Positions 1,710-44,391 of a stretch of DNA of 44,472 nt are shown here, piece after piece. The position numbers were made by a program, and so were the translations under genes. The notes below the pieces were generated by a model that worked only from the letters and a program-made list of their open reading frames with translations, made no database searches and was not told the DNA's origin. Origin of the DNA: a virus; the IMG/VR virus record IMGVR_UViG_3300017788_000046, positions 1-44,472 of that record. One strand, written 5' to 3'. Within the stretch, counting starts at the first letter, position 1; each line of letters begins with the position of its first letter.

Positions 1710-3191
1710 TTAATCTATAGAATCAGAGATAATTTTAGTGGTTTGCTCTTCATTTAACCCGCCATCCGGCAAGTGTTTTAGAGTATTTGCACGGTCTCCA
1801 AACAATGCTGACATTACACCACCACTAGTTTGACGCTCAACTGTCATACGTACAAACTCCTTGTTTTCTTCTAATTCTTTTAATTGTTTTACTAATTTAA
1901 AAAGCCTATCAATTTCTTGACCGGTGTTGGGATCAGGGTAACCACCATTTAGTTCTTCTGCAAATCGAGAAAAAGCCACTCTGGCGCCCTGCATTTCAAT
2001 AATTGTATTTAAAAGAGCCTTTAATTGATCCTTTGTCTTGACCTCAAGTGGAAGGTTAAAGGCACAAGCTGAATCAGGTTTCATTGCCGGACAGTTAGCA
2101 GCTACAAAACATGTGTTGCACTGTCTCAAGGACATATTAGAATTTTCTATGACTGCGGCGTCACGAATTACGTCTCTTCCGCTACCGTCGGTATCTATAA
2201 TAGTTTTTGAACTCATTGAAAATACCGGCAAAGTTCGTATCTCATCAGCACTTCTGCCCTTAATTTCAACAGATTGTTTCCGCACCTCTAGAGCACTATT
2301 ATCAGGTTCTAACCCCTGTGTTTCCGCTAAACCTGGGTCATCCTTATCAACGTTGTTATCTGATAACATCGGCCTACCTTTTTTTGTTAGGGCCAACTCC
2401 AACTGCAAGTAAGACCAGATTGTTAGTTTTGCTACTTCATTGCTGTCATCATTTAAAATTAAATCAAAGTCTAATCCAGCTTTTTCAACAACTGCTTTAT
2501 ATCTTGATCTGGCTTGGTCCTTCATTTTTTTCTGATACCTTACCAAGCGAGTACCGTCCCAAATAATAGTCTCCCCACGCATCATGGGAGACAACCAAGA
2601 TAGGGTGCTGGCAGTCGTTAATGGGACTTGACGAAGGTTATCCGGGTTAGCGCAAGCAATCCCATGAAAAGATACCCCATACTGGGATTGAAGGGCCCTA
2701 GCCCGTGCTGAAAGCGTTAAATCGGTACTTATAGTCTGGCCCAGAATACCCACGTGAGGGTAGGTTTGAGATAAAGACATAAGGGCTGGGTGACCTAACT
2801 CACCATGCCATATGGGTATAAAACGATCCGCTCCGAAGTCTTCCCAGAAGGTCTTACGCTGTTCGTTGATCCAAGCTGATCCAAGTCCTTTGGCATCCAA
2901 TTCTGTGGCCATAAAAATTCTTTCTTCATTTATGGCTACCCAATCCTCATAATCAGCTGCGTATTCTTCAAGCTCAACGGGGGAGAACTTTTCTTTATTT
3001 ATGTGGTACCCACCCCCGTCTATATAAATCTTTATATCCTCTGGGAAACGTTCTGCAAGCAGGTAATCTTTATTTTTTGGTAGGCCTCGCTTCATTAAAC
3101 GCCAAAAATTAACCCCTATATGCTTAACACCGGCGTCAACTAAGAGCTTTCTGTGAGATGGGACCTCGCCGCCAAGGAAAATTAAGTCCAT
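1710..3191 (-). CDS. tRNA-guanine transglycosylase / DpdA-like protein
   Basis: A 493-residue protein whose first ~210 residues have the motif order of TGT-superfamily TIM barrels, closest in style to archaeosine TGT and DpdA, the enzyme that inserts 7-deazaguanine bases into DNA. Visible landmarks are YIDGGGYH (Asp58, place of the general base in DSGxF), a central IPIWHGE strand, HGIACANPDNL (from residue 176; HGfgvt in DpdA) and TTASTLSWL (192-200; VDSTSW in DpdA). In my hand alignment the nucleophilic Asp of VDSTSW is Ser here, so activity is uncertain. A C-terminal C-x2-C-x5-C-x8-C cluster (358, 361, 367, 376) could bind zinc or Fe-S. I chose the ATG at 3191 (TAATG overlap with the upstream gene, AGGTGG before it) over a GTG at 3200. 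It could modify DNA or tRNA, or only bind; no preQ0 synthesis genes lie in the window. Confidence 0.6.
   Translation of the reverse strand: MDLIFLGGEVPSHRKLLVDAGVKHIGVNFWRLMKRGLPKNKDYLLAERFPEDIKIYIDGGGYHINKEKFSPVELEEYAADYEDWVAINEERIFMATELDAKGLGSAWINEQRKTFWEDFGADRFIPIWHGELGHPALMSLSQTYPHVGILGQTISTDLTLSARARALQSQYGVSFHGIACANPDNLRQVPLTTASTLSWLSPMMRGETIIWDGTRLVRYQKKMKDQARSRYKAVVEKAGLDFDLILNDDSNEVAKLTIWSYLQLELALTKKGRPMLSDNNVDKDDPGLAETQGLEPDNSALEVRKQSVEIKGRSADEIRTLPVFSMSSKTIIDTDGSGRDVIRDAAVIENSNMSLRQCNTCFVAANCPAMKPDSACAFNLPLEVKTKDQLKALLNTIIEMQGARVAFSRFAEELNGGYPDPNTGQEIDRLFKLVKQLKELEENKEFVRMTVERQTSGGVMSALFGDRANTLKHLPDGGLNEEQTTKIISDSID
2354..2368. repeat. Second copy of the 15-nt palindrome TGTTATCTGATAACA
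   Basis: An exact 15-nt match to the core of the palindrome at 1684-1700, in the same orientation and about 670 bases away, inside the TGT-like gene where it encodes part of a linker (residues LSDNN). The linker between the barrel and the cysteine cluster looks free to vary, so the shared palindrome need not be driven by protein sequence. I found no third copy by eye. Confidence 0.5.
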
Positions 3192-3652
3192 TATTCCCAC
3201 CTATTTAAATCATCGTCTAGAGTTAATTTAGCCTTTAATTTTTTTTGAGACTCAATTTCCTGTTTTACATCGTCCCAAGGACGGGTTTCTCGTTTTCTAC
3301 GAGTGAAGTTAGGCTTAGAAAATAACATAGTAGTTACCCCAGAAGCTATAGCAGAAACGCAACGATCTACATCACAGTCTATAAATAGTTCAATTCCCCC
3401 TGAAGATCGGGCAAGGGTTAGTTGGCGTAGGCGTAGGTCTTGACCCTCAAAGGCTAGTCTTTTATCGTATAGCTCAGCATAACCTGTAACTAAGTTAGAT
3501 CTAAGCCAATACTCTGCCTCTTCAGAAGTACCGTCGGTAGCGAGCGCGATGCGATAAGAGCCAACCAGGGTTCTAAAAAGTTTAAGACCCTCATGTATAG
3601 GGTCTCCTACTTCAGTTCTTAGTACGCCGTCTATTGAAATGAATGCTGTCAT
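3191..3652 (-). CDS. HAD-superfamily-like protein lacking the usual nucleophile
   Basis: 153 residues with a HAD-like layout: FISIDGVL (4-11) corresponds to motif I, ALATDGT (Thr39) to motif II, and LFIDCDVDRC (Asp92/94/96) to motif IV. In active HAD phosphatases motif I is DxDGV; here the first Asp is Ser6, while Asp8 is kept. It is therefore probably inactive as a classical phosphatase, or uses another chemistry, or is a binding protein. The last 40 residues are highly charged. It is translationally coupled on both sides: ATGA overlap with the nucleotidyltransferase upstream, TAATG with the TGT-like gene downstream. That suggests the three act together. Family call is by motif only. Confidence 0.45.
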   Translation of the reverse strand: MTAFISIDGVLRTEVGDPIHEGLKLFRTLVGSYRIALATDGTSEEAEYWLRSNLVTGYAELYDKRLAFEGQDLRLRQLTLARSSGGIELFIDCDVDRCVSAIASGVTTMLFSKPNFTRRKRETRPWDDVKQEIESQKKLKAKLTLDDDLNRWE

Positions 3653-35393: not shown

Positions 35394-36234
35394 TTTTAAA
35401 GAACTCCTCATTAGGCACAACTACACCCTTGTCTTCAAAACTAAAGTCCTTAAGTTTGTGCGTAGTTTCAATAACTTTTCCTGTTTGTTCATTGTATCCA
35501 GTCACTACACGGTCTACTTTTGCTCCTCTTTCTGGAGAACTATCTGAAATTTCATAAGTAACTCCAATAATAGTTCCATAGCTTCTATTGTATTTAACTG
35601 CTACCCCACCAACTGATGAGTCTTCGTATTTAAAATACTTTGCAGAGGGTTTGCTTTTGCTATAAATCTTATTTTTAGAAACAAAATAAATAGTAGTTCC
35701 TTCAGAACGTAGAGCAAATCCTGTTTGTTTGGCTAAACGTCGGCATACTTGCCAATCAGTTTGACCAGCAGCTACAATCATTTTTCTTACACGTGGGTGT
35801 CTTTGAGTAATGGCTTTCATACCATTTTTTGCTGCAATTTTACTTATTACTTGATCTGCAGTAACATTTTTATATATTTTTTGATCTGTATTCTTTAAAT
35901 AATAAGACGCAGATAGGCAAACTACATCGGTATTGTTTGAGTCTGCATCGTCTTTAGGAATAATTTCATAGACGTACCCTAAAAATTCTGATTTAACTCT
36001 GTCAGTTGTATACGTAAATTTTACTGGATCTTCAGAAAAAAGTGAAGTCTCTCTAGACTCTGGCTTTCCTTTAAAATGAAGAACTAATCGATCGTGCTGC
36101 TCCGTATCTTGATATAATTCAGCACCCACTAAATTCAGTTCAAAATTAGGCTTTTTAGGGAACTCTACTTTAAAAGTAGAGTATCTAGCTGTAGACTCAT
36201 ATACGTAATTTTTTTGAGGATTATTTTCTGTCAT
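35386..36234 (-). CDS. Baseplate hub, N-terminal half (gpD/gp27-like, split gene)
   Basis: 282 residues. STFKVEFPKKPNFELNLVGA, then DRLVLHFKG and FLGYVYEI form the first hub sheet; CLSASYYLKNTDQKIYKNV and TDWQVCRRLAKQTGFALRSE (the D-W-x-x-x-x-R-L-A-x-x-x-G motif, about 172-190) are typical of gpD/VgrG-like hubs. The second hub sheet is in the next gene. The central hub holds the tube on the spike. It overlaps the LysM gene by 14 bases. Confidence 0.75.
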   Translation of the reverse strand: MTENNPQKNYVYESTARYSTFKVEFPKKPNFELNLVGAELYQDTEQHDRLVLHFKGKPESRETSLFSEDPVKFTYTTDRVKSEFLGYVYEIIPKDDADSNNTDVVCLSASYYLKNTDQKIYKNVTADQVISKIAAKNGMKAITQRHPRVRKMIVAAGQTDWQVCRRLAKQTGFALRSEGTTIYFVSKNKIYSKSKPSAKYFKYEDSSVGGVAVKYNRSYGTIIGVTYEISDSSPERGAKVDRVVTGYNEQTGKVIETTHKLKDFSFEDKGVVVPNEEFFKNE

Positions 36235-36505: not shown

Positions 36506-38157
36506 GATGTAGTAGCCTCTTCTCCGGTAGATGCGTTAGCTTGTGCTTGTTTTCGCCAGCCTTCTTTAATTGCTTCTGAGCCAAGGTCAAGGGATGGGTA
36601 ACGAATAAAGGAGATATCTACTTTAGAAAGCATGGGAACCATTTCTTGAGTAAACATTACATGAGTTACACTTAAAGTAGCGAAAGAACCATAGTATTTT
36701 AAATTATCATGTATGTGGAACCAACATGGCGTACCGGTAATATATCCAAAATCTGAACTTTCTCCCGGGTAATTTAAAAGAGCAGTTTTTCCAGGACTTC
36801 CATTCAACACTCTATATAAAAATTCAAGGTCGTACTCAGTACCACGTCTTAAAATTCCTTCAACTTCTTCCGGCGTAAGGGCTCTAGGATAGTTTTTAGT
36901 GTAAGATCCACCACCCCAATTTTTAAGCTCCGTCATATCTGCTATACGATTTAAATATAAAGACACAGTAACTGAAGTATTTCCTCCTAATAGGTTTGCA
37001 GGATCTTTGCTATTTAACATCCAGTCAATTGAGGTATTAGTTGTAGTGCCGTACTCTATGGCGGTGGGATTATAAGTAAATTTAAATCCCCAAAAAGGTT
37101 GCTTACCTGTTTTATCTTTTTTATTAAGAGCTTTTGCGCCATCAGTAGATTGATATATTTTTCCTAGACGATTGTTTCTATTAGACAATGCTTGTTGTAC
37201 ATCTACAATAGAGGTAATAATTCGACCATTGCTATTTAATTGCTCTCTAGTTCGTTCTCCATGAGAAACACTTCTAGTGACATAATGATTAGGTGGGTTA
37301 TATCTAACCTTATCTAGATTGGGTGGTGGAAGCACAGCGGTGTCTGGGACATCTGGGTCGTCATTAGAAAAACACTCTTGCGCTTTTAACCTAATTACTT
37401 GTTTTCTACCAACTTCATAGTGATTGATTTTGTCTGGATTAGGTCCGCCATCTTTTCCAATATACTTTTGACTAACAAATGATCCATCTAACGCGTATGT
37501 TTTTACATAAACGTGTCTGCCATCTGACTTATCTTTAAGAACTAGCGCTACCCATCTGTTAGGTTTTGCACAGGTGTCACGAGTAATAAGATCTTGTAGA
37601 CTACCAACAGCAGCCTCATCTTTTATGTTTTGAGGTACTTGTGAAGCAACATTGCCTTGAGTAAAAGTAATTGTTTTTGGTAAGCCAGGTATTCCAATTG
37701 CAGGAAAAACTTCTAAAGGCACTGAACTATTATTTTCATCACTGTTGGGCTTTAATGTAACTAAAAATTTGGGGGTAAAAGTAAACCCAGCTGTTTTTCC
37801 TTTAAATCCTACGTAAAATAAGTTTTTATCTGAAAATAATTGATTTTCTTCATTTGTGCTATTAATGGTGCCAATAGTTACGTTATTAGCAACAGAATCT
37901 CTATAACTTTGTGGTATTGCTACTTGAACATTATTGTCATTTAATATTTGTGGTATTCCGGACCCCAGTTTGTACACACGAATATAGTATATTACTTCAT
38001 GCTTTAAATTTACTCTTTTAGATGGGCTACTTATTGCAACATACCCATCTTCTGGGCTGCTGCCACCGGTTCCAATTTCTTCTTTTGTAACAACAGTCCA
38101 GTAATATAGGATTCCGGCATTTTGTAAGCTAGGGTTGTCTACATATTCATATGCCAT
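36502..38157 (-). CDS. Tail tube initiator / CIS tube-like baseplate protein
   Basis: 551 residues. The first ~300 residues are beta-rich with no family I can name. The C-terminal 240 include FKFTYNPTAIEYGTTTNTS, then SVTVSLYLNRI, FLYRVLNGSPG, GTPCWFHIHDNL and a strand pair VTHVMFTQEM and DISFIRYPSL, a pattern shared with CIS-tube (Afp7-type) and T4 gp48/54-like tube-initiator proteins. Afp7 normally carries a LysM at its C-terminus; here the LysM protein is the next gene. The tape measure gene is just upstream, which suits a hub/tube-end role. Confidence 0.5.
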   Translation of the reverse strand: MAYEYVDNPSLQNAGILYYWTVVTKEEIGTGGSSPEDGYVAISSPSKRVNLKHEVIYYIRVYKLGSGIPQILNDNNVQVAIPQSYRDSVANNVTIGTINSTNEENQLFSDKNLFYVGFKGKTAGFTFTPKFLVTLKPNSDENNSSVPLEVFPAIGIPGLPKTITFTQGNVASQVPQNIKDEAAVGSLQDLITRDTCAKPNRWVALVLKDKSDGRHVYVKTYALDGSFVSQKYIGKDGGPNPDKINHYEVGRKQVIRLKAQECFSNDDPDVPDTAVLPPPNLDKVRYNPPNHYVTRSVSHGERTREQLNSNGRIITSIVDVQQALSNRNNRLGKIYQSTDGAKALNKKDKTGKQPFWGFKFTYNPTAIEYGTTTNTSIDWMLNSKDPANLLGGNTSVTVSLYLNRIADMTELKNWGGGSYTKNYPRALTPEEVEGILRRGTEYDLEFLYRVLNGSPGKTALLNYPGESSDFGYITGTPCWFHIHDNLKYYGSFATLSVTHVMFTQEMVPMLSKVDISFIRYPSLDLGSEAIKEGWRKQAQANASTGEEATTS

Positions 38158-41100
38158 TAGTAACTACCAATTCCTTCTCCATACTTAAGTTTTTGTTCTA
38201 ATCTTCTCAACACATCGTCTGCTAATTTATTAGCCTCAGATACAGATGCTCTTGCAATTTGAACATTCATATTTACCGAAACATTTACCTTTGAGTTAGA
38301 GTTTAAAGTAGCATTTCCTCGCATAACGGCGGTGCTAGAACCTCCAGTTTCTGTGGAAGAAAGTCCAGCAGACCCCATACCATCGCCGCCACCCATGCCA
38401 GTTTTCTTTGCTACAGTCTCTGCATCGTCTAAGAACTTAGTAAAAGCACCGGTGTTATAAGCTTCCCAAGGTTTCCAGTTAGTTCCTTTTTTACTTTTTA
38501 CCCAAGCAGATTGGATATTGTAACGTGGGTCACGAAGACGAGTAGCATCTCTATAGGGATCGTTGTACGCTCTCCAATCTTTTAAAGAACGGATCTGAAA
38601 AATCCCATAACTGTTTCCCCATTTTTTATTTGCTAAATGCTCGTCTCCCACAGCTCCCGGTCTTCCACCAGATTCTGCTAAAGCTACTGCAAAGGCTGTT
38701 TTTAAAGAATCTCCTCTAAAGCCTCCTTCATAAAGCATTTTCATAAGAGCAGATCGACTTCCTCCAGCTATTCCTGAAGGAGTTTCATCATACGAAGTAT
38801 TAAAGTTATCCTTATATTTTTTACTATTAACGTTTATCCCACTGACCATTCTTCCAAGATTTACTGGTCCTCCACTAAACATCCGCAATAGTTCAGAGAT
38901 AGAGGGGCTTCTTAGTTTTTTAGATACTGGCAGGGATAAGTCACTGTCTAGTGAGGAAGTAGAGCTGGAAGTCTTAATGTCATTATTAATTCCAAAAACT
39001 CTGCCCGCCATGTTTTTTAAACCACTAAATGCTTTTCCAGCAATGTGTTTTATAAATGAAAATGCTCTTCCAAATAGTCCTTTAGGATCTTGACGTCCTT
39101 GAGCACCAACACCGCCGTGATCTCTGATTTCAAAGTGAAGGTGTGGACCAGTAGAGCTTCCTGCTCCTGGAGCACCTCTTTTACCGCCAGACTTAGCAAT
39201 TTCTTGACCTTGTTTTACTTTTTGCCCTTTAGAAACAAGTATCTTACTTAAGTGAGCATACAAAGTTGATTTTTTTGCGTGTTTTATAATTACATAATAG
39301 CCATATTGACGATGAGTTCCAGTTTCACTTACAATACCATCTGCAGCTGCAGCTACAGGGCTGCCTACACCAACTGCGTAGTCAATACCGGTGTGATTAG
39401 AGCTAATGCCCGGATTTCTTTTTGCTGCATCTGGACGAGGTCCAAAAGGAGAACTTACTGGAGTACCTTTAGGCACAGGCGGTTGAAATACTTTTCCGGT
39501 AGCTCCACCGTCTCCACCAATGCCATGAGAACAACCCATGTGGCCATGAGCGCAATCTCCGCCACCCATTCCTCCGCCTAATAGCGTTTGTCCAAGACCA
39601 ATACCCGTACCTATAAGGGCACCAATACCTGTTCCAAGACCAGGAATAAAGCTTCCTACAGCGGCTCCCGTAAGAGCCATGCTACCTATGTTGGCAGCTG
39701 CTCTACCGGCAGTACGAACATTAGGGTTGACTTTATCTCCAAATAATGCGTCTAATGCTTCTGTACCTAAAGTGGCCGCAATAGCGCCGATTGTGAGTTT
39801 ACCCTTTGAAGACTTTATTAATTTTAATAAGGCTGCTCGTTTAGATAGTGCAGCTGCACCAGTAGCAGCAGTTCCAGCTCCAACAGCAGCTGCTGTTCCA
39901 GCGCCCATAGTTGCTGCTGTTCCGCCTGCAGCTAAAGCACCTGTTCCCATAAGCCCTTTAGCGCCACCAACACCAAGCATTCTTGCAGTTAATCCTAGCT
40001 GCAGTGCGCTAGCGCCTGCACCCATGGCCATACCGCCTAAGCTTGATAAAGTTGCTCCCGTATTTCCAGCCCCAGGCATAGTTTGTAAAATACCTTTTAG
40101 GGTCATTAATCCATCATTGACTGGACCTAATATGTCAGCCATAGTGCTAAACGCATCGTTGACGGATGCCGTAGTACGAAGACCTACGTTGTATCCACCC
40201 ACTAAACCAGCTTCTGTTGATTCAAGCTTACGGGCCTCAGACGTGTTGTATCGGAACTGAGATCTTATTGGGCTTTCTTTACCAACACCCATAAGATCAA
40301 GAGCTCGGTTAGGGTCAGACAAGTCTTTTTTATTTAGGGCGCTTCCCTTACTTGCCCTAGCAATTATTCCCATTTGCAATTGACGCATTAATTCTGGATC
40401 CCCACCAGTTAGTTGCATTAAAGTTGCATAACCCCTAGATCCAGGGTTAAGAACCATCATTGCTTGTTCTTTAGTTATGGAGCGTGCGCCATATAAAAAG
40501 CGATAAGCTTGATTTATTAATTGATTAGGAGCTACTAGGTTTCCCTCTCTGTCACGAGCACGAATGCCGCCTCGCAAAAAAGTCATTGCATTTATTCCAG
40601 CAAATGCTCCAGCAACTTGTTCGTTAGAGGAACCGGTTATTGCCGACATACCCCCAAGTTGTTGCATTATTCGCCTAGAGCCTAGGGTATTGGCTAAATA
40701 TCCGCCTTGATAAGCTAGCGTTGCTGCAGCAGCTGTAGGACCGTATGCGCTAGTTGCGCCGCCACCTACTAAACGATTAGATTGAGAAATTAAGCTTGTA
40801 GCGCCCATTCCGCTGAGTCCAGCCACGGAATCTGCGTACATTCTTTGAGTTACTGCCGCCATAGTATTTGGCGCCATACTCATACCTATTGCTGCAGTTC
40901 CAGCTGCAACTACTCCAAGACCTACGCCAATCTGTTGGTTGCGGGTCCCACTTCCAAAACTACCAAGACCTAAAGTTTGACCGCCAACGCCACCTTTTCC
41001 ACCGTTAGAAATTTTGTTTACATACTCAGCAGCTTGTTTTAAATTTTTATTTATTTTATCGGTGTGTGCGACAAGTTTAAGCAGCCCAGTATCACCTTTA

Positions 41101-41189
41101 GACAATATTTTTTCCAGGATACCTGGCATTTGTCCAAAAGTGTTGTCGGTAGCACCGACCAAGTTTTGTCCACCGGGTGGGACTGCCAT
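38157..41189 (-). CDS. Tail tape measure protein with M23 peptidase and lytic transglycosylase domains
   Basis: 1010 residues. The first ~540 are Ala/Gly/Met-rich helical and hydrophobic segments typical of tape measures. Residues 575-700 form an M23 (LytM) metallopeptidase: SSPFGPRP, NHTGIDYA (His599, Asp603), AHL (His646) and GPHLHFEI (His683, His685), all zinc and catalytic positions present. Residues 810-920 form an SLT-type transglycosylase: ALAESGGRP (Glu839) and NSYGIFQI. Just ahead of M23, DCAHGHMGCSHG is a Cys/His-rich insert. It sets tail length and opens the cell wall during injection. It starts as TAATG at the end of the chaperone extension. Confidence 0.92.
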   Translation of the reverse strand: MAVPPGGQNLVGATDNTFGQMPGILEKILSKGDTGLLKLVAHTDKINKNLKQAAEYVNKISNGGKGGVGGQTLGLGSFGSGTRNQQIGVGLGVVAAGTAAIGMSMAPNTMAAVTQRMYADSVAGLSGMGATSLISQSNRLVGGGATSAYGPTAAAATLAYQGGYLANTLGSRRIMQQLGGMSAITGSSNEQVAGAFAGINAMTFLRGGIRARDREGNLVAPNQLINQAYRFLYGARSITKEQAMMVLNPGSRGYATLMQLTGGDPELMRQLQMGIIARASKGSALNKKDLSDPNRALDLMGVGKESPIRSQFRYNTSEARKLESTEAGLVGGYNVGLRTTASVNDAFSTMADILGPVNDGLMTLKGILQTMPGAGNTGATLSSLGGMAMGAGASALQLGLTARMLGVGGAKGLMGTGALAAGGTAATMGAGTAAAVGAGTAATGAAALSKRAALLKLIKSSKGKLTIGAIAATLGTEALDALFGDKVNPNVRTAGRAAANIGSMALTGAAVGSFIPGLGTGIGALIGTGIGLGQTLLGGGMGGGDCAHGHMGCSHGIGGDGGATGKVFQPPVPKGTPVSSPFGPRPDAAKRNPGISSNHTGIDYAVGVGSPVAAAADGIVSETGTHRQYGYYVIIKHAKKSTLYAHLSKILVSKGQKVKQGQEIAKSGGKRGAPGAGSSTGPHLHFEIRDHGGVGAQGRQDPKGLFGRAFSFIKHIAGKAFSGLKNMAGRVFGINNDIKTSSSTSSLDSDLSLPVSKKLRSPSISELLRMFSGGPVNLGRMVSGINVNSKKYKDNFNTSYDETPSGIAGGSRSALMKMLYEGGFRGDSLKTAFAVALAESGGRPGAVGDEHLANKKWGNSYGIFQIRSLKDWRAYNDPYRDATRLRDPRYNIQSAWVKSKKGTNWKPWEAYNTGAFTKFLDDAETVAKKTGMGGGDGMGSAGLSSTETGGSSTAVMRGNATLNSNSKVNVSVNMNVQIARASVSEANKLADDVLRRLEQKLKYGEGIGSY

Positions 41190-41341
41190 TACTTCACCGC
41201 CTTAGGCCTATTAATTGCTTTAGTTAACCAAATCATTCTTTCCCTAAAAGATAGGGACTTGATGTCCTGTAAAGTCCATCCTGGATAATAGTGCGTTAGT
41301 AAACTATACGCTTCTATAACCAGCTCGTAACTTGTCTCACT
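41189..41341 (-). CDS. Out-of-frame C-terminal extension of the tail assembly chaperone
   Basis: A 50-codon frame between the chaperone and tape measure genes, shifted +1 (or -2) from the chaperone frame. Its product (SETSYELVIEAYSLLTHYYP, then GWTLQDIKSLSFRERMIWL) looks like the C-terminal part of tail assembly chaperones. It has no ATG, GTG or TTG between the upstream stop in its frame (41363-41365) and position 41221, by which point most of the peptide has been read. It is therefore probably made only as a fusion with the 272-residue protein (about 322 residues in all). Its stop overlaps the tape measure ATG (TAATG). Confidence 0.7.
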   Translation of the reverse strand, partial: SETSYELVIEAYSLLTHYYPGWTLQDIKSLSFRERMIWLTKAINRPKAVK

Positions 41342-41362
41342 CTCGAAACAAATCTGCCAGGG
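41337..41362 (-). other. Programmed +1/-2 frameshift window
   Basis: The shift must occur after the extension-frame stop (41363-41365) and before or at the zero-frame TGA (41337-41339). Two good mechanisms are visible in TTT CGA GAG TGA. A -2 slip of the tRNA on GAG (41342-41340), with TGA in the A site, re-pairs perfectly with GAG at 41344-41342. A +1 slip moves tRNA-Phe from TTT to TTC at CGA. The two predict fusions ending DLFRE-SETS or DLF-ESETS. Confidence 0.6.
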
Positions 41363-42155
41363 TCAGTGGCAGTGATACCTCCGAATCGCAAGAGGAGCAA
41401 GTTTTTTTGATTTCACTAAGTTGTGGGCCTGGGTTGCGGTCTGTTATATGCTTTATTAGATCTCTACGATCTTTTAAGCTTAAATCCTTAATTTGTTGAA
41501 CATTTAAAATAGGCATTCCATTGATAGATTCGACACAGCTCTTTAAAAGAATAGTGTCTAGTTCAGCTGCATTTTTGTTAGTTGCATTAACTAGTGCTTT
41601 TTGAGCACCGCCAGTTGGTAAATTTACTTTTACCTTTCCAACTTTGCAATCAACTATCAATGACCTATCTTCTTCTTTTTCTAACTTTTTAGTTTTTACA
41701 TCGGATGTGAGATCAATCTTAAAAGTTTGATCTTCTCCACAATCGGGACATACAGGACCAATAGTCACTTCTGGACCAAATGTGGCAACTCTAATAGCTA
41801 AAAGTAGTGCTTCTCTGTCTCCAGCTAAAAGAGCATCTAATGTTTCTTTATCGGCTGGTTTATCGCCAATTTTTACTGTCGCTCTTTCTAGTATGGATAA
41901 TAGAGCTTTTCCAGGATCACCAATTCGAGCAATTATTTCTTCGTCAGTTCCTGTTAGTTCTCGTATTTCTGCGGTAGTTATGACCCCTTCAAAAGGATCA
42001 GTTAAGCCACCAGGTAGTTCTACCTGAGTATCAGGAGGTAACGGAGTTTCAACCTTAGGGGCTGGTGCCGCTACCTCCTGCTCAGAAAGTGCTTGTGCTG
42101 CTAGTTTATTAGCTAGAGCAGGGTTGTTTGTTGCGCTGATAGTTTCTGTAGACAT
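41337..42155 (-). CDS. Tail assembly chaperone / T4 gp26-type zinc-ribbon protein, zero-frame product
   Basis: 272 residues. An acidic, Ala/Pro-rich N-terminus and a helical domain (DEEIIARIGDPGKALLSILE) precede PVCPDCGEDQTF and KTCSSCDSEVSL, two CxxC pairs that can form a zinc ribbon as in T4 gp26/gp28-type proteins. The protein ends LADLFRE at a TGA where a frameshift can add 50 residues. It is located between the tube and tape measure genes, the standard place for tail assembly chaperones. These proteins coat the tape measure before the tube polymerises. Confidence 0.75.
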   Translation of the reverse strand: MSTETISATNNPALANKLAAQALSEQEVAAPAPKVETPLPPDTQVELPGGLTDPFEGVITTAEIRELTGTDEEIIARIGDPGKALLSILERATVKIGDKPADKETLDALLAGDREALLLAIRVATFGPEVTIGPVCPDCGEDQTFKIDLTSDVKTKKLEKEEDRSLIVDCKVGKVKVNLPTGGAQKALVNATNKNAAELDTILLKSCVESINGMPILNVQQIKDLSLKDRRDLIKHITDRNPGPQLSEIKKTCSSCDSEVSLPLTLADLFRE

Positions 42156-42178: not shown

Positions 42179-42817
42179 TTAAAGAGCTGAGATTACTGTG
42201 CTGTCAGAAAGTTTCTGTGCTGAACCTGCTTGTGTATAGTTACGAGCAAAGGTTACGTCAAAGCCTTCATGTACTAGAGTAAGTTCTTCAACCATTAGTG
42301 TGCTAGCTCCGGCGTCCAAGTTGCTGTAAGACAATGAAGTAATCCAGCAGTTGTTTACACGGAAACGCATAGATGCGTGTTGATCATAGGCAGTTTCTAC
42401 TGCACCAGATCCGCCAGACCCATTAAGAGCAGCTGGGTTTGGATGACTTAGTACAGCGATATCTAGATCGCAACGGAAGTCTGCACCAACACCACTTGTA
42501 GCGTTTGGTGTTAAGACTGAAAATAGACGACGCATCCAACGAGCGTGAGCATCGTTACCTAACATTACTCCTTTAGAAAGGGTAATTGGGGTAAAAGAGC
42601 TCTGACCAGGAATCTGGTGAAAGTTGGTGTTGTAGCCGCCTTCGCGGTATGCAATTGATTCAGTAGTGACGCTTAGACCGGAAAGAGATACGAAACCCAT
42701 CTTTCCAAAAGAAGAGCCCCACTTAGCATCATTAGTCTGTGGAAGAAACTCAACCACAAACTTAAAATTACGTACCGGATCGGTTAAGAGGGTACTGAGG
42801 GTGTTATTTACGGGCAT
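42179..42817 (-). CDS. Tail tube protein (gp19-like)
   Basis: 212 residues. DPVRNFKFVVEFLPQTND, then FVSLSGLSVTTESIAYREG and SFTPITLSKGVMLGND are the standard gp19-type tube motifs (N-x-F-x-V-x-[FI] and S-G-L-x-x-x-x-x-x-x-Y-R-E-G). Later VNNCWITSLSYSNLDAGAST and VEELTLVHEGFDV close the beta barrel. Hexamers stack to make the inner tube. It lies 14 bases after the sheath gene, the usual order. Confidence 0.93.
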   Translation of the reverse strand: MPVNNTLSTLLTDPVRNFKFVVEFLPQTNDAKWGSSFGKMGFVSLSGLSVTTESIAYREGGYNTNFHQIPGQSSFTPITLSKGVMLGNDAHARWMRRLFSVLTPNATSGVGADFRCDLDIAVLSHPNPAALNGSGGSGAVETAYDQHASMRFRVNNCWITSLSYSNLDAGASTLMVEELTLVHEGFDVTFARNYTQAGSAQKLSDSTVISAL

Positions 42818-42831
42818 GATTATTTATCTCC

Positions 42832-44391
42832 TTAAGCCGTAGCTGTTCCGGTAATCTGACCAAGTTTGATTACAATAAACTCAGCAGGGTACTCAAGAGC
42901 AACGCCAACTTCAATGTTGACACGGCCATTTTGAATGTCTGCTTGGCTTGTTGTACTTGCATCTACCTTTACGTAGTAAGCCTTATCTGGGCTTGCTCCA
43001 CGTAAACCACCTTGTTGCCAATAACCTCTTAAGAAAGAGCCTAAAGCAACACGGATTTGAGACCATAGACGTTCGCTATTGTTCTCAAATATTGCAAAAG
43101 AGCTTCGATCAGTTAGCTCTTTCTTTATGTAGACCAGTGATCTACGTACATTTATGTAGCGATCACCTGGGGTGTTGTTAAGTGTGCGACCACCCATAAC
43201 AACAATTCCATTTCCTGGCACTTGGCGAATTGCATTAATTGGCGCAGTTCCAGTATTAAGAGAATCTAGTTCAGCATTTGTTAGTTGACGTTCGGTAGCA
43301 ACTGCTAAAGCTACTCGGTTTGTAAGACCAGCTGGGGACTTAAATACACCACGAGAAGCGTCTGTGGCTAAGAATTGACCCATCATTGCTGCTGCAGGAG
43401 CTTGAGTTCTAGTAGCTCCTCCGCTTGCACGCAAAGTGTCAGGGATAACAAGCCATGGATAATAAACCGCAGCGCATCCTCCATCTGAGTCCGGAGCCGC
43501 AGCCTTTACATCTGCAATAAAGGTTTTAGCTTCATTGGTTGTCTGACCTACTGGAACATCAACTATAGCGAACGCGTCTCCACGTAGCTCGCAATAATTA
43601 ACTAAATCTCCATAAATATTTACAGCAAGAGTGCGCTCTTGAGTAGTTCCAGCAGGAGTATAAATGTATGCAGCTGCAGGAATTGTAAATAGAAGTGGAT
43701 TTTGGATAGCATCAAATGTGGTTAGCGCATCTGAGTAGTTAGTACGAGTTGGAGCTGCTCCATTTGCACCGCCGCTTAGATCTTTCAAGCCATCAATTTC
43801 TGGCATATCATCTGGGGAAACAGACGCTGAATTTAGATCTGCAGCACGTACGTAAGCTGAAGAGGCGTTAATTACGGATACTACATATCTAGGATCTGTA
43901 GAATTCATACTTAGATCAGTAAACTGCTCTAATACATTTGAATTTGCAGCGTTTGTAATTGGAGCGCCATACACAGCTAAAGTAAAGCGAGTAGCTGTTC
44001 CGGCTGCTAATACTTCTACAGAAAGATCATTTCCCCAAGCTCCTGGGCTTGCTGCAGAAATAGAAAGGGTGTTAAGAGCAGCTTGAGCACGGTCAGTTAA
44101 TATTACTGATGCTGAAGCTGAGGAGCTTCCTACAACTCGCTTTACGTATAGCTGACGGCCACCGTTAGCAAAAAAGTTATAGGCTGCCCATGTGGTTGGA
44201 TATGCGTCTTCAAGAGATCCAAAAGTTTTTACGAACTGTGTCCAAGAGTTAAGAAGCACTGGTTGATTAACAGGTCCACTAGATAGAGCGCCTACCAGGG
44301 CTCCAGCTGCAGTTCCTACATCCGCTAGTGCGACTTCTTGAGGAAGTTCGACTTCTTGGATAAAGACGCCTGGTCTACTGTATGTAGCCAT
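42832..44391 (-). CDS. Tail sheath protein
   Basis: 519 residues. Starts ATYSRPGVFIQEVELPQEVA, the classic sheath N-terminus (Y-x-x-P-G-V-[FY]-x-x-E), then VGALSSGPVNQPVLL. The middle has two inserted domains, and the C-terminus contains YINVRRSLVYIKKEL and NGRVNIEVGVALEYPAEFIV, the conserved sheath core. Contraction of this polymer drives the tube into the cell. The ATG is preceded by AAGGAG. Typical sheaths are 450-700 residues, so it is complete. Confidence 0.95.
   Translation of the reverse strand: MATYSRPGVFIQEVELPQEVALADVGTAAGALVGALSSGPVNQPVLLNSWTQFVKTFGSLEDAYPTTWAAYNFFANGGRQLYVKRVVGSSSASASVILTDRAQAALNTLSISAASPGAWGNDLSVEVLAAGTATRFTLAVYGAPITNAANSNVLEQFTDLSMNSTDPRYVVSVINASSAYVRAADLNSASVSPDDMPEIDGLKDLSGGANGAAPTRTNYSDALTTFDAIQNPLLFTIPAAAYIYTPAGTTQERTLAVNIYGDLVNYCELRGDAFAIVDVPVGQTTNEAKTFIADVKAAAPDSDGGCAAVYYPWLVIPDTLRASGGATRTQAPAAAMMGQFLATDASRGVFKSPAGLTNRVALAVATERQLTNAELDSLNTGTAPINAIRQVPGNGIVVMGGRTLNNTPGDRYINVRRSLVYIKKELTDRSSFAIFENNSERLWSQIRVALGSFLRGYWQQGGLRGASPDKAYYVKVDASTTSQADIQNGRVNIEVGVALEYPAEFIVIKLGQITGTATA

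Follow-up and report, generated by a model that had tools for sequence, protein, structure and literature searches.

Probable +1 frameshifting at UUU-Y in phage tail assembly chaperone genes of the T4 gp26/gp51 family, with a candidate two-part element upstream of the slip site

Results

Tail Genes and Reading Frames at the Locus

The window, that is, the whole stretch of 44,472 nt that was analyzed, carries on its minus strand the tail module of a contractile-tailed phage. Genes for a tail sheath (42832..44391; phrog_23, E = 1.9e-52) and a gp19-like tail tube (42179..42817; PF06841, E = 2e-21) are followed by an ORF of 272 aa (41337..42155) and by the tape measure gene (38157..41189), all of them on the minus strand. 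In a profile search, the product of the 272-aa ORF matched PF12322 (T4_baseplate) with an E-value of 2.1e-14 and 54.2 bits, above the curated cut-off of 24.5, as well as the baseplate hub family phrog_150 (E = 1.5e-13). It is thus a tail assembly chaperone of the PF12322 family, T4 gp26/gp51 type, and it sits between the tail tube and tape measure genes as G/GT chaperones do; we refer to this zero-frame product as the G form. Its residues Cys136, Cys139, Cys253, and Cys256, invariant in 12 aligned sequences, would constitute a putative zinc site, which makes the earlier description of the protein as a zinc-ribbon type a fair one. The tape measure protein (38157-41189, minus strand) contains both an M23 peptidase domain and a lysozyme-like SLT_3 domain. 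Elsewhere in the window, a queuine tRNA-ribosyltransferase-like gene (1710-3200, minus strand; phrog_887, E = 1.1e-61) possibly takes part in 7-deazaguanine modification of DNA or tRNA. A hub-gene junction near 35400, considered as a second frameshift, was rejected: the overlap is an ordinary one and has an ATG of its own.

The chaperone ORF ends with GAT TTG TTT CGA GAG TGA, its UGA stop (41337..41339, minus strand) being located two sense codons past UUU. From this TTT, the +1 frame of the window reads F-ESETSYELVIEAYSLLTHYYPGWTLQDIKSLSFRERMIWLTKAINRPKAVK, in which the 51 residues of ESETSYELVIEAYSLLTHYYPGWTLQDIKSLSFRERMIWLTKAINRPKAVK, followed by TAA, make up an extension (41189..41344, minus strand), or T part, whose stop overlaps the start of the tape measure gene as TAATG (41191-41187). 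The extension is tentatively P2 GpE-like: it matched the tail family phrog_6416 with an E-value of 0.002, and Pfam P2 GpE (PF06528) with an E-value of 0.033 and 14.1 bits, below the cut-off of 23. Upstream, a TGA at 41365-41363 bounds the +1 frame, and both frames overlap by 23 nt, or by 26 nt if the zero-frame stop is counted. In the +1 frame of the window, the Met codon of the RERM motif is the first ATG, GTG, or TTG. The original prediction, which had placed the locus at 41189-42155 and described an extension in a shifted frame that is open for 26 bases up to the zero-frame TGA and has no usable start codon, was therefore correct in its coordinates and frames.

Conservation of the Frame Break Among Relatives

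We compared the window with 157 related loci, 8 from deposited phage records and 149 from IMG/VR; a scan of genome contigs for further relatives found none. Twelve of the resulting 158 sequences end ahead of the zero-frame stop, and 146 are readable through the site. Codon re-pairing was tabulated for 124 genes, and clusters were defined at less than 70% protein identity (45 clusters), with stricter sets of 22 clusters below 50% and 16 below 40% identity. Near-copies (L059-L063, L084, L087, L089, L095, and L123) were counted by script only, and L116 and L137 have truncated extensions. In the 99% identical relative L006, the chaperone frame breaks internally near position 3149, with a stop after 216 codons, upstream of the slip site; this is likely an assembly error.

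In 135 of the 146 readable sequences, the zero frame contains UUU and then C or U, and the extension lies in +1. The +1 extension was GpE-like in the displayed readable UUU-Y members, among them LR756508 and phages of Streptomyces, Bacillus (SP-15), Listeria (LIS04), and Streptococcus (GXN1). Six other sequences (L143, L146, L147, L148, L152, and L153) have lost UUU-Y and read TTY AAT CCC AGT, with the extension still in +1, and this subclade has probably switched its slip site to CCC-A. In three distant PF12322-like members (L156-L158), the extension is in the −1 frame, the site being T TTT TTC in L157 and L158 and a TTT TTT C run in L156, which has TTT-C and yet carries its extension in −1. 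In the remaining two, the distant relatives L108 and L114, the extension is a separate ATG gene at the end of the chaperone gene.

The same frame break and site are found again in contigs of independent origin and in named phages, and the break is therefore not an assembly artifact. A single-base change would join both frames of the window, as expected if a sequencing or assembly error, or decay of the gene, had split one ORF by an indel; this explanation has a negligible probability and is refuted by the relatives, the break being retained at one and the same codon in 135/146 readable sequences, some of them from named complete phage genomes. The 3′ part of the +1 extension is annotated as a hypothetical gene in phages LuckySocke (L015, 3378-3533), BRock (L016, 3342-3524), and SP-15 (L022, 3249-3368). 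By their coordinates these genes are in the same frame as the +1 extension, whose end has thus been annotated as a separate gene and the GT product missed.

Slip Site and Direction of the Shift

The slip site is UUU_C (41345..41348, minus strand), with UUU as the P-site Phe codon and CGA as the zero-frame A-site codon. In our table of sites, the TTT-Y closest to the stop, at a distance of at most 20 codons, was used as slip codon, a rule that favors finding one and was checked by a count of the feasible re-pairings in the overlap. In that count, +1 re-pairing on UUU was feasible in all 45 clusters, and in 31 of them no other codon of the overlap could re-pair in this way. By its conserved zero-frame UUU plus pyrimidine inside the overlap, the site belongs to the UUU_C class. 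The Phe codon was TTT in every cluster, while the genes overall use 247 TTT vs. 93 TTC; given the TTT:TTC use of each gene, the chance of this outcome is about 10^-8.7 for the 45 clusters and 10^-4.8 for the 22 clusters below 50% identity.

The A-site codon was CGN in 28 of the 45 clusters and, when it encoded Arg, never AGR; the other codons at this position were CAR, CAY, CTN, TGG, TTT, and TAA, the latter in L051 and L052, where the stop comes right after UUU (TTT TAA) and the overlap of L051 amounts to 11 nt. Since the A-site codon varies among relatives, a rare CGA as the driver of the shift was rejected (the window uses CGA at 5.3 and CGC at 4.1 per 1000 codons), and CGA, at which the original prediction had placed the +1 option, is not the key. 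A 3′ stimulator was likewise rejected, the 76 nt downstream giving a z-score of −1.01. These observations fit a slip of tRNA-Phe in the P site from UUU to UUC (or UUU), in which the zero-frame A-site codon would be secondary.

The original prediction had proposed a programmed shift of either +1 or −2, and it is true that both TTT to TTC re-pairing (+1) and GAG re-pairing (−2) are possible in the window itself. In the −2 case, as in the tail chaperone of Mu, the shift of which is −2 according to PMC3498833, tRNA-Glu on GAG would slip back to the overlapping GAG while UGA occupies the A site, and the window does offer perfect re-pairing and a stop in that place. However, no GAR codon able to re-pair exists in the L013-type site (TTT CGC TAA) or in L051 and L052 (TTT TAA), nor is there such a codon in the Streptomyces member L016, and −2 re-pairing anywhere in the overlap was feasible in only 43/124 genes and 21/45 clusters, so that no −2 codon is conserved, as opposed to UUU-Y in 45/45. 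A Mu-like −2 shift is therefore very unlikely. Frame, site, direction, and conservation are read from the sequences directly, and on these grounds we consider the slip site and the +1 direction firm at the level of sequence comparison; frameshifting as such and its +1 variant are well supported, and the −2 variant fails in the relatives.

An ATT codon in the +1 frame of the window, between TGA and TTC, might serve as a non-canonical start, and in L108 and L114 the extension does have its own ATG. Separate translation of the extension is nevertheless highly improbable, given that no ATG, GTG, or TTG precedes the RER motif, that ATT is not kept in L013, and that an overlap of only 11 nt is left in L051. 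Aligning the site in relatives, a check suggested together with the original prediction, which named separate start codons as the contrary outcome, thus gave UUU-Y with a +1 extension in 135/146 sequences and a separate ATG in those two. Transcriptional slippage, for which TTTTTT at the site of some distant members might speak, can practically be dismissed, the run in the window (GTTTC) being too short.

A Probable Hairpin Upstream of the Slip Site

Two features absent from the original prediction, a hairpin and an SD-like motif, precede the slip site. The hairpin, which we grade as probable, consists of a 5′ arm CTGCCA (41367..41372), a loop CTGACCC (41360-41366), and a 3′ arm TGGCAG (41354..41359), all on the minus strand, the latter being located 5 nt from UUU. 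When synonymous codons were permuted within each gene, keeping protein and codon use, the window hairpin had a p-value of 0.0075 and ranked 5 of 255 positions in the gene, and p < 0.05 was reached in 22/45 clusters; the Streptomyces-type and several distant hairpins were individually not significant in this test (p from 0.08 to 0.47).

Across relatives, the 3′ edge of the hairpin lies 3–7 nt ahead of UUU, and its arms vary by lineage but pair within each: CTGCCA/TGGCAG in the window, CCGCTA/TAGCGG in L007 and L013, TTCCTA/TAGGAA in L097, CCCAC/GTGGG in BRock, CGCATCC/GGATGCG in LR756508, TACCG/CGGTA in L099, CTGGGTT/AGCCCAG in L149, and GGTGC/GCACC in L151. Dealing the 3′ arms among sequences broke the pairing, the observed total being reached in 0 of 50000 trials with 45 clusters, in 9 of 50000 with the 22 clusters below 50% identity, and in 437 of 50000 with the 16 below 40%. 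Column covariation on alignment A4 was not above control, because the helix changes register between lineages. For the window, folding of the 45 nt that precede UUU gave a different lowest-energy structure (−10.8 kcal/mol), in which the 5′ arm pairs with GGUA, and the hairpin was the best fold only within a 40-nt stretch (−8.9). Dinucleotide-shuffle z-scores were weak (−0.98 in the window, −2.15 in L013, +0.17 in L016, and +0.21 in L099).

An SD-Like Motif That Accompanies the Hairpin

The SD-like motif GAGGU (41377..41381, minus strand; GGAGGU from 41382) lies 28 nt before UUU in the window. GAGGT was found in 31/45 clusters, all of which also have the hairpin, at a distance to TTT of 28 nt in 22 clusters, 25 nt in 7, and 26 and 19 nt in one each. 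With the hairpin folded, about 9 unpaired nt would separate motif and UUU in the window, and 4–13 in relatives. The motif thus does not have the close spacing of a prfB-type SD, which lies a few nt from its P-site codon: it is 28 nt away in sequence, and folding of the hairpin would be required to bring this down to 9 unpaired nt. In Escherichia coli prfB (RF2), the SD:anti-SD helix is close to CUU, whereas here the hairpin would fill the place of that helix and the SD-like motif lies beyond it.

The Glu codon of the motif was always GAG, while GAA is preferred elsewhere in these genes (662 vs. 308); the product of the per-gene odds is about 10^-16 if the clusters are independent, which is not fully so, and the 31 clusters entered include L125, the motif of which is out of frame. 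In L134 and L140, the EV dipeptide is encoded by GAGGTA at the fixed place and by GAAGTA when distal, and in L125 GAGGT is built out of frame from other residues.

Hairpin and SD-like motif occurred together in 31 of the 45 clusters, 12 had neither, two had the hairpin only (L022 and L137), and none had the motif only; adding nine members without the UUU-Y +1 shift brought in two with GAGGT but no hairpin (L143 and L148). Among these members, no hairpin was found in the four scored from the CCC AGT subclade. In L108 and L114, no hairpin was scored and GAGGT was absent; L157 has neither feature, and L156 and L158 have weak stems and no GAGGT. The joint label changed 8 times on a tree of 56 proteins, 7 of the changes being forced by well-supported branches, and in independent pairs corrected for descent 5.5 of 8 agreed and none opposed (p between 0.03 and 0.06, borderline). 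Coupling of hairpin and SD-like motif is thus plausible, and sequence comparison suggests that both assist the slip in many phages that are only distantly related. As the 12 clusters with neither part still carry UUU-Y, the 5′ element is not strictly required.

Those 12 clusters would also be expected if the +1 shift at UUU_CGN worked alone and the hairpin and GAGGU merely reflected protein and codon constraints plus shared descent. The weak shuffle z-scores point the same way, as do HF2, which has TTT CGC and no evident hairpin, and influenza A virus, in which UUU_C works with no hairpin named in the relevant passages of PMC3498833. Against this stand the synonymous permutation and arm-dealing results, the GAGGTA/GAAGTA choice in L134 and L140, and the out-of-frame GAGGT of L125, so that we consider an unaided site possible but rather unlikely.

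Relationship to T4 Genes 26, 51, and 25

T4 genes 26 (L160, 4306-4929; E = 8.8e-64) and 51 (L160, 4980-5726; E = 3.9e-52) both belong to PF12322. The family covers residues 1–201 of gp51, leaving 48 residues in frame, and gp26 ends at EFFELL. The last 48 residues of gp51 matched the −1-frame extensions with 92.8% in hhalign, and these in turn matched the +1 extensions with 95.5% when the −1 members were left out of the +1 profile; compared directly, gp51 and the +1 extensions gave no significant match (2.6%; hmmsearch E = 3.2). The link therefore rests on two steps, from gp51 to the −1 members and from these to the +1 extensions. On this basis, T4 may have a two-gene G/GT system, with gp26 as its short G and gp51 as an in-frame GT, similar to the two-gene form described for phage 0305phi8-36 in PMC2147016.

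The end of T4 gene 26 also contains the split ribosome-binding site of gene 25, in which, according to PMC3014915, a hairpin cuts the SD distance from 27 to 11 nt. In both arrangements, which are located at the ends of homologous genes, an SD or SD-like motif is followed by a hairpin and then by the target codon; they differ in that the T4 site serves initiation at AUG and its hairpin overlaps the FF codons. A link between the two is conjecture. The T4 arrangement is said in PMC3014915 to have arisen within close T-even phages, and such an origin would speak for convergence.

Discussion

The comparison of relatives makes it probable that the G and GT chaperones are produced from one gene by programmed +1 frameshifting, in which a hairpin and an SD-like motif may favor the slip. 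In G/GT systems, G typically binds the tape measure, GT recruits the tube, and neither is present in virions. Most ribosomes would presumably read to UGA and yield the G form, and in a minority tRNA-Phe would slip in the P site from UUU to UUC at +1 and yield the GT form, which would join tape measure and tube as in lambda. We infer a stimulating role for the hairpin: re-folded behind the ribosome, with its 3′ edge 5 nt before UUU, it would occupy the place of the SD:anti-SD helix in prfB and, together with the GGAGGU just before it, may hold or push the 30S subunit so that a forward slip is favored.

Frameshifts that yield G and GT are known from long-tailed phages such as lambda and P2, and that of HSTV-2 is described as very likely +1 (Atkins et al., 2016; PMC5009743). 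The present gene shares with these systems the place between tube and tape measure, the two products (here predicted), and an extension that ends at the tape measure gene; it differs in shifting +1 at UUU-Y instead of −1 and in a G part of the T4 gp26/gp51 family, T4 being called the exception in PMC5009743. TTT-CGC has been suggested as a +1 site in the HF1-group haloviruses (PMC7230728), which resemble our case in direction, in TTT-CGN, and in a tail chaperone before the tape measure; these are archaeal viruses, and the HF2 zero-frame protein lacks the CxxC motif and an evident upstream hairpin. The same slip of a P-site Phe tRNA from UUU to UUC, often before CGN, is described for influenza A PA-X (PMC3498833) and for plant amalgaviruses, named in PMC7230728, which use 80S ribosomes without an SD. 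The existence of a class of UUU_C stimulators was anticipated by Firth et al. (PMC3498833).

On E. coli 70S ribosomes, an upstream hairpin juxtaposing the E site was reported to stimulate +1 and reduce −1 shifting, mimicking an internal SD helix (Huang et al., 2018; PMC6321510). The hairpin described here would likewise adjoin the E site at a +1 shift on 70S ribosomes, those hairpins being designed and placed at CUUUGA. The same article describes for prfB a slip by +1 in the P site and a helix that adjoins the E site on its 5′ side; like L051 and L052, prfB has a stop in the A site. Thus, G/GT shifts, UUU_C +1 sites, engineered upstream hairpins, and TTT-CGC in haloviruses were already known. 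The apparent novelty of these sequences is a two-part 5′ element, made up of a hairpin and an SD-like GAGGU that in most cases precedes UUU by 25 or 28 nt; we found no phage tail-chaperone +1 site with a conserved upstream hairpin and SD-like motif in open-licence PMC full text.

The element could go further and act as a split SD for the elongating ribosome: the hairpin would fold in the mRNA exit region and bring an SD 25–28 nt away within a reach like that in prfB or in initiation, and the T4 gene 25 start would be the same device, reused for initiation after the frameshift had given way to gp26 (G, ending in EFFELL) and gp51 (in-frame GT). We regard this extended scenario as unlikely.

Collectively, these results suggest that tail chaperones of the gp26/gp51 branch as a rule shift by +1 at UUU-Y and not by −1; their GT product is missed in the current annotations of LuckySocke, BRock, and SP-15. 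The 5′ element is likely a natural counterpart of the +1-stimulating upstream hairpin that is known, in the literature considered here, from engineered constructs (PMC6321510), and it comes in many natural variants, with, without, or moved. The separate short and long paralogues of T4 would offer a possible answer to why this phage appears as the exception.
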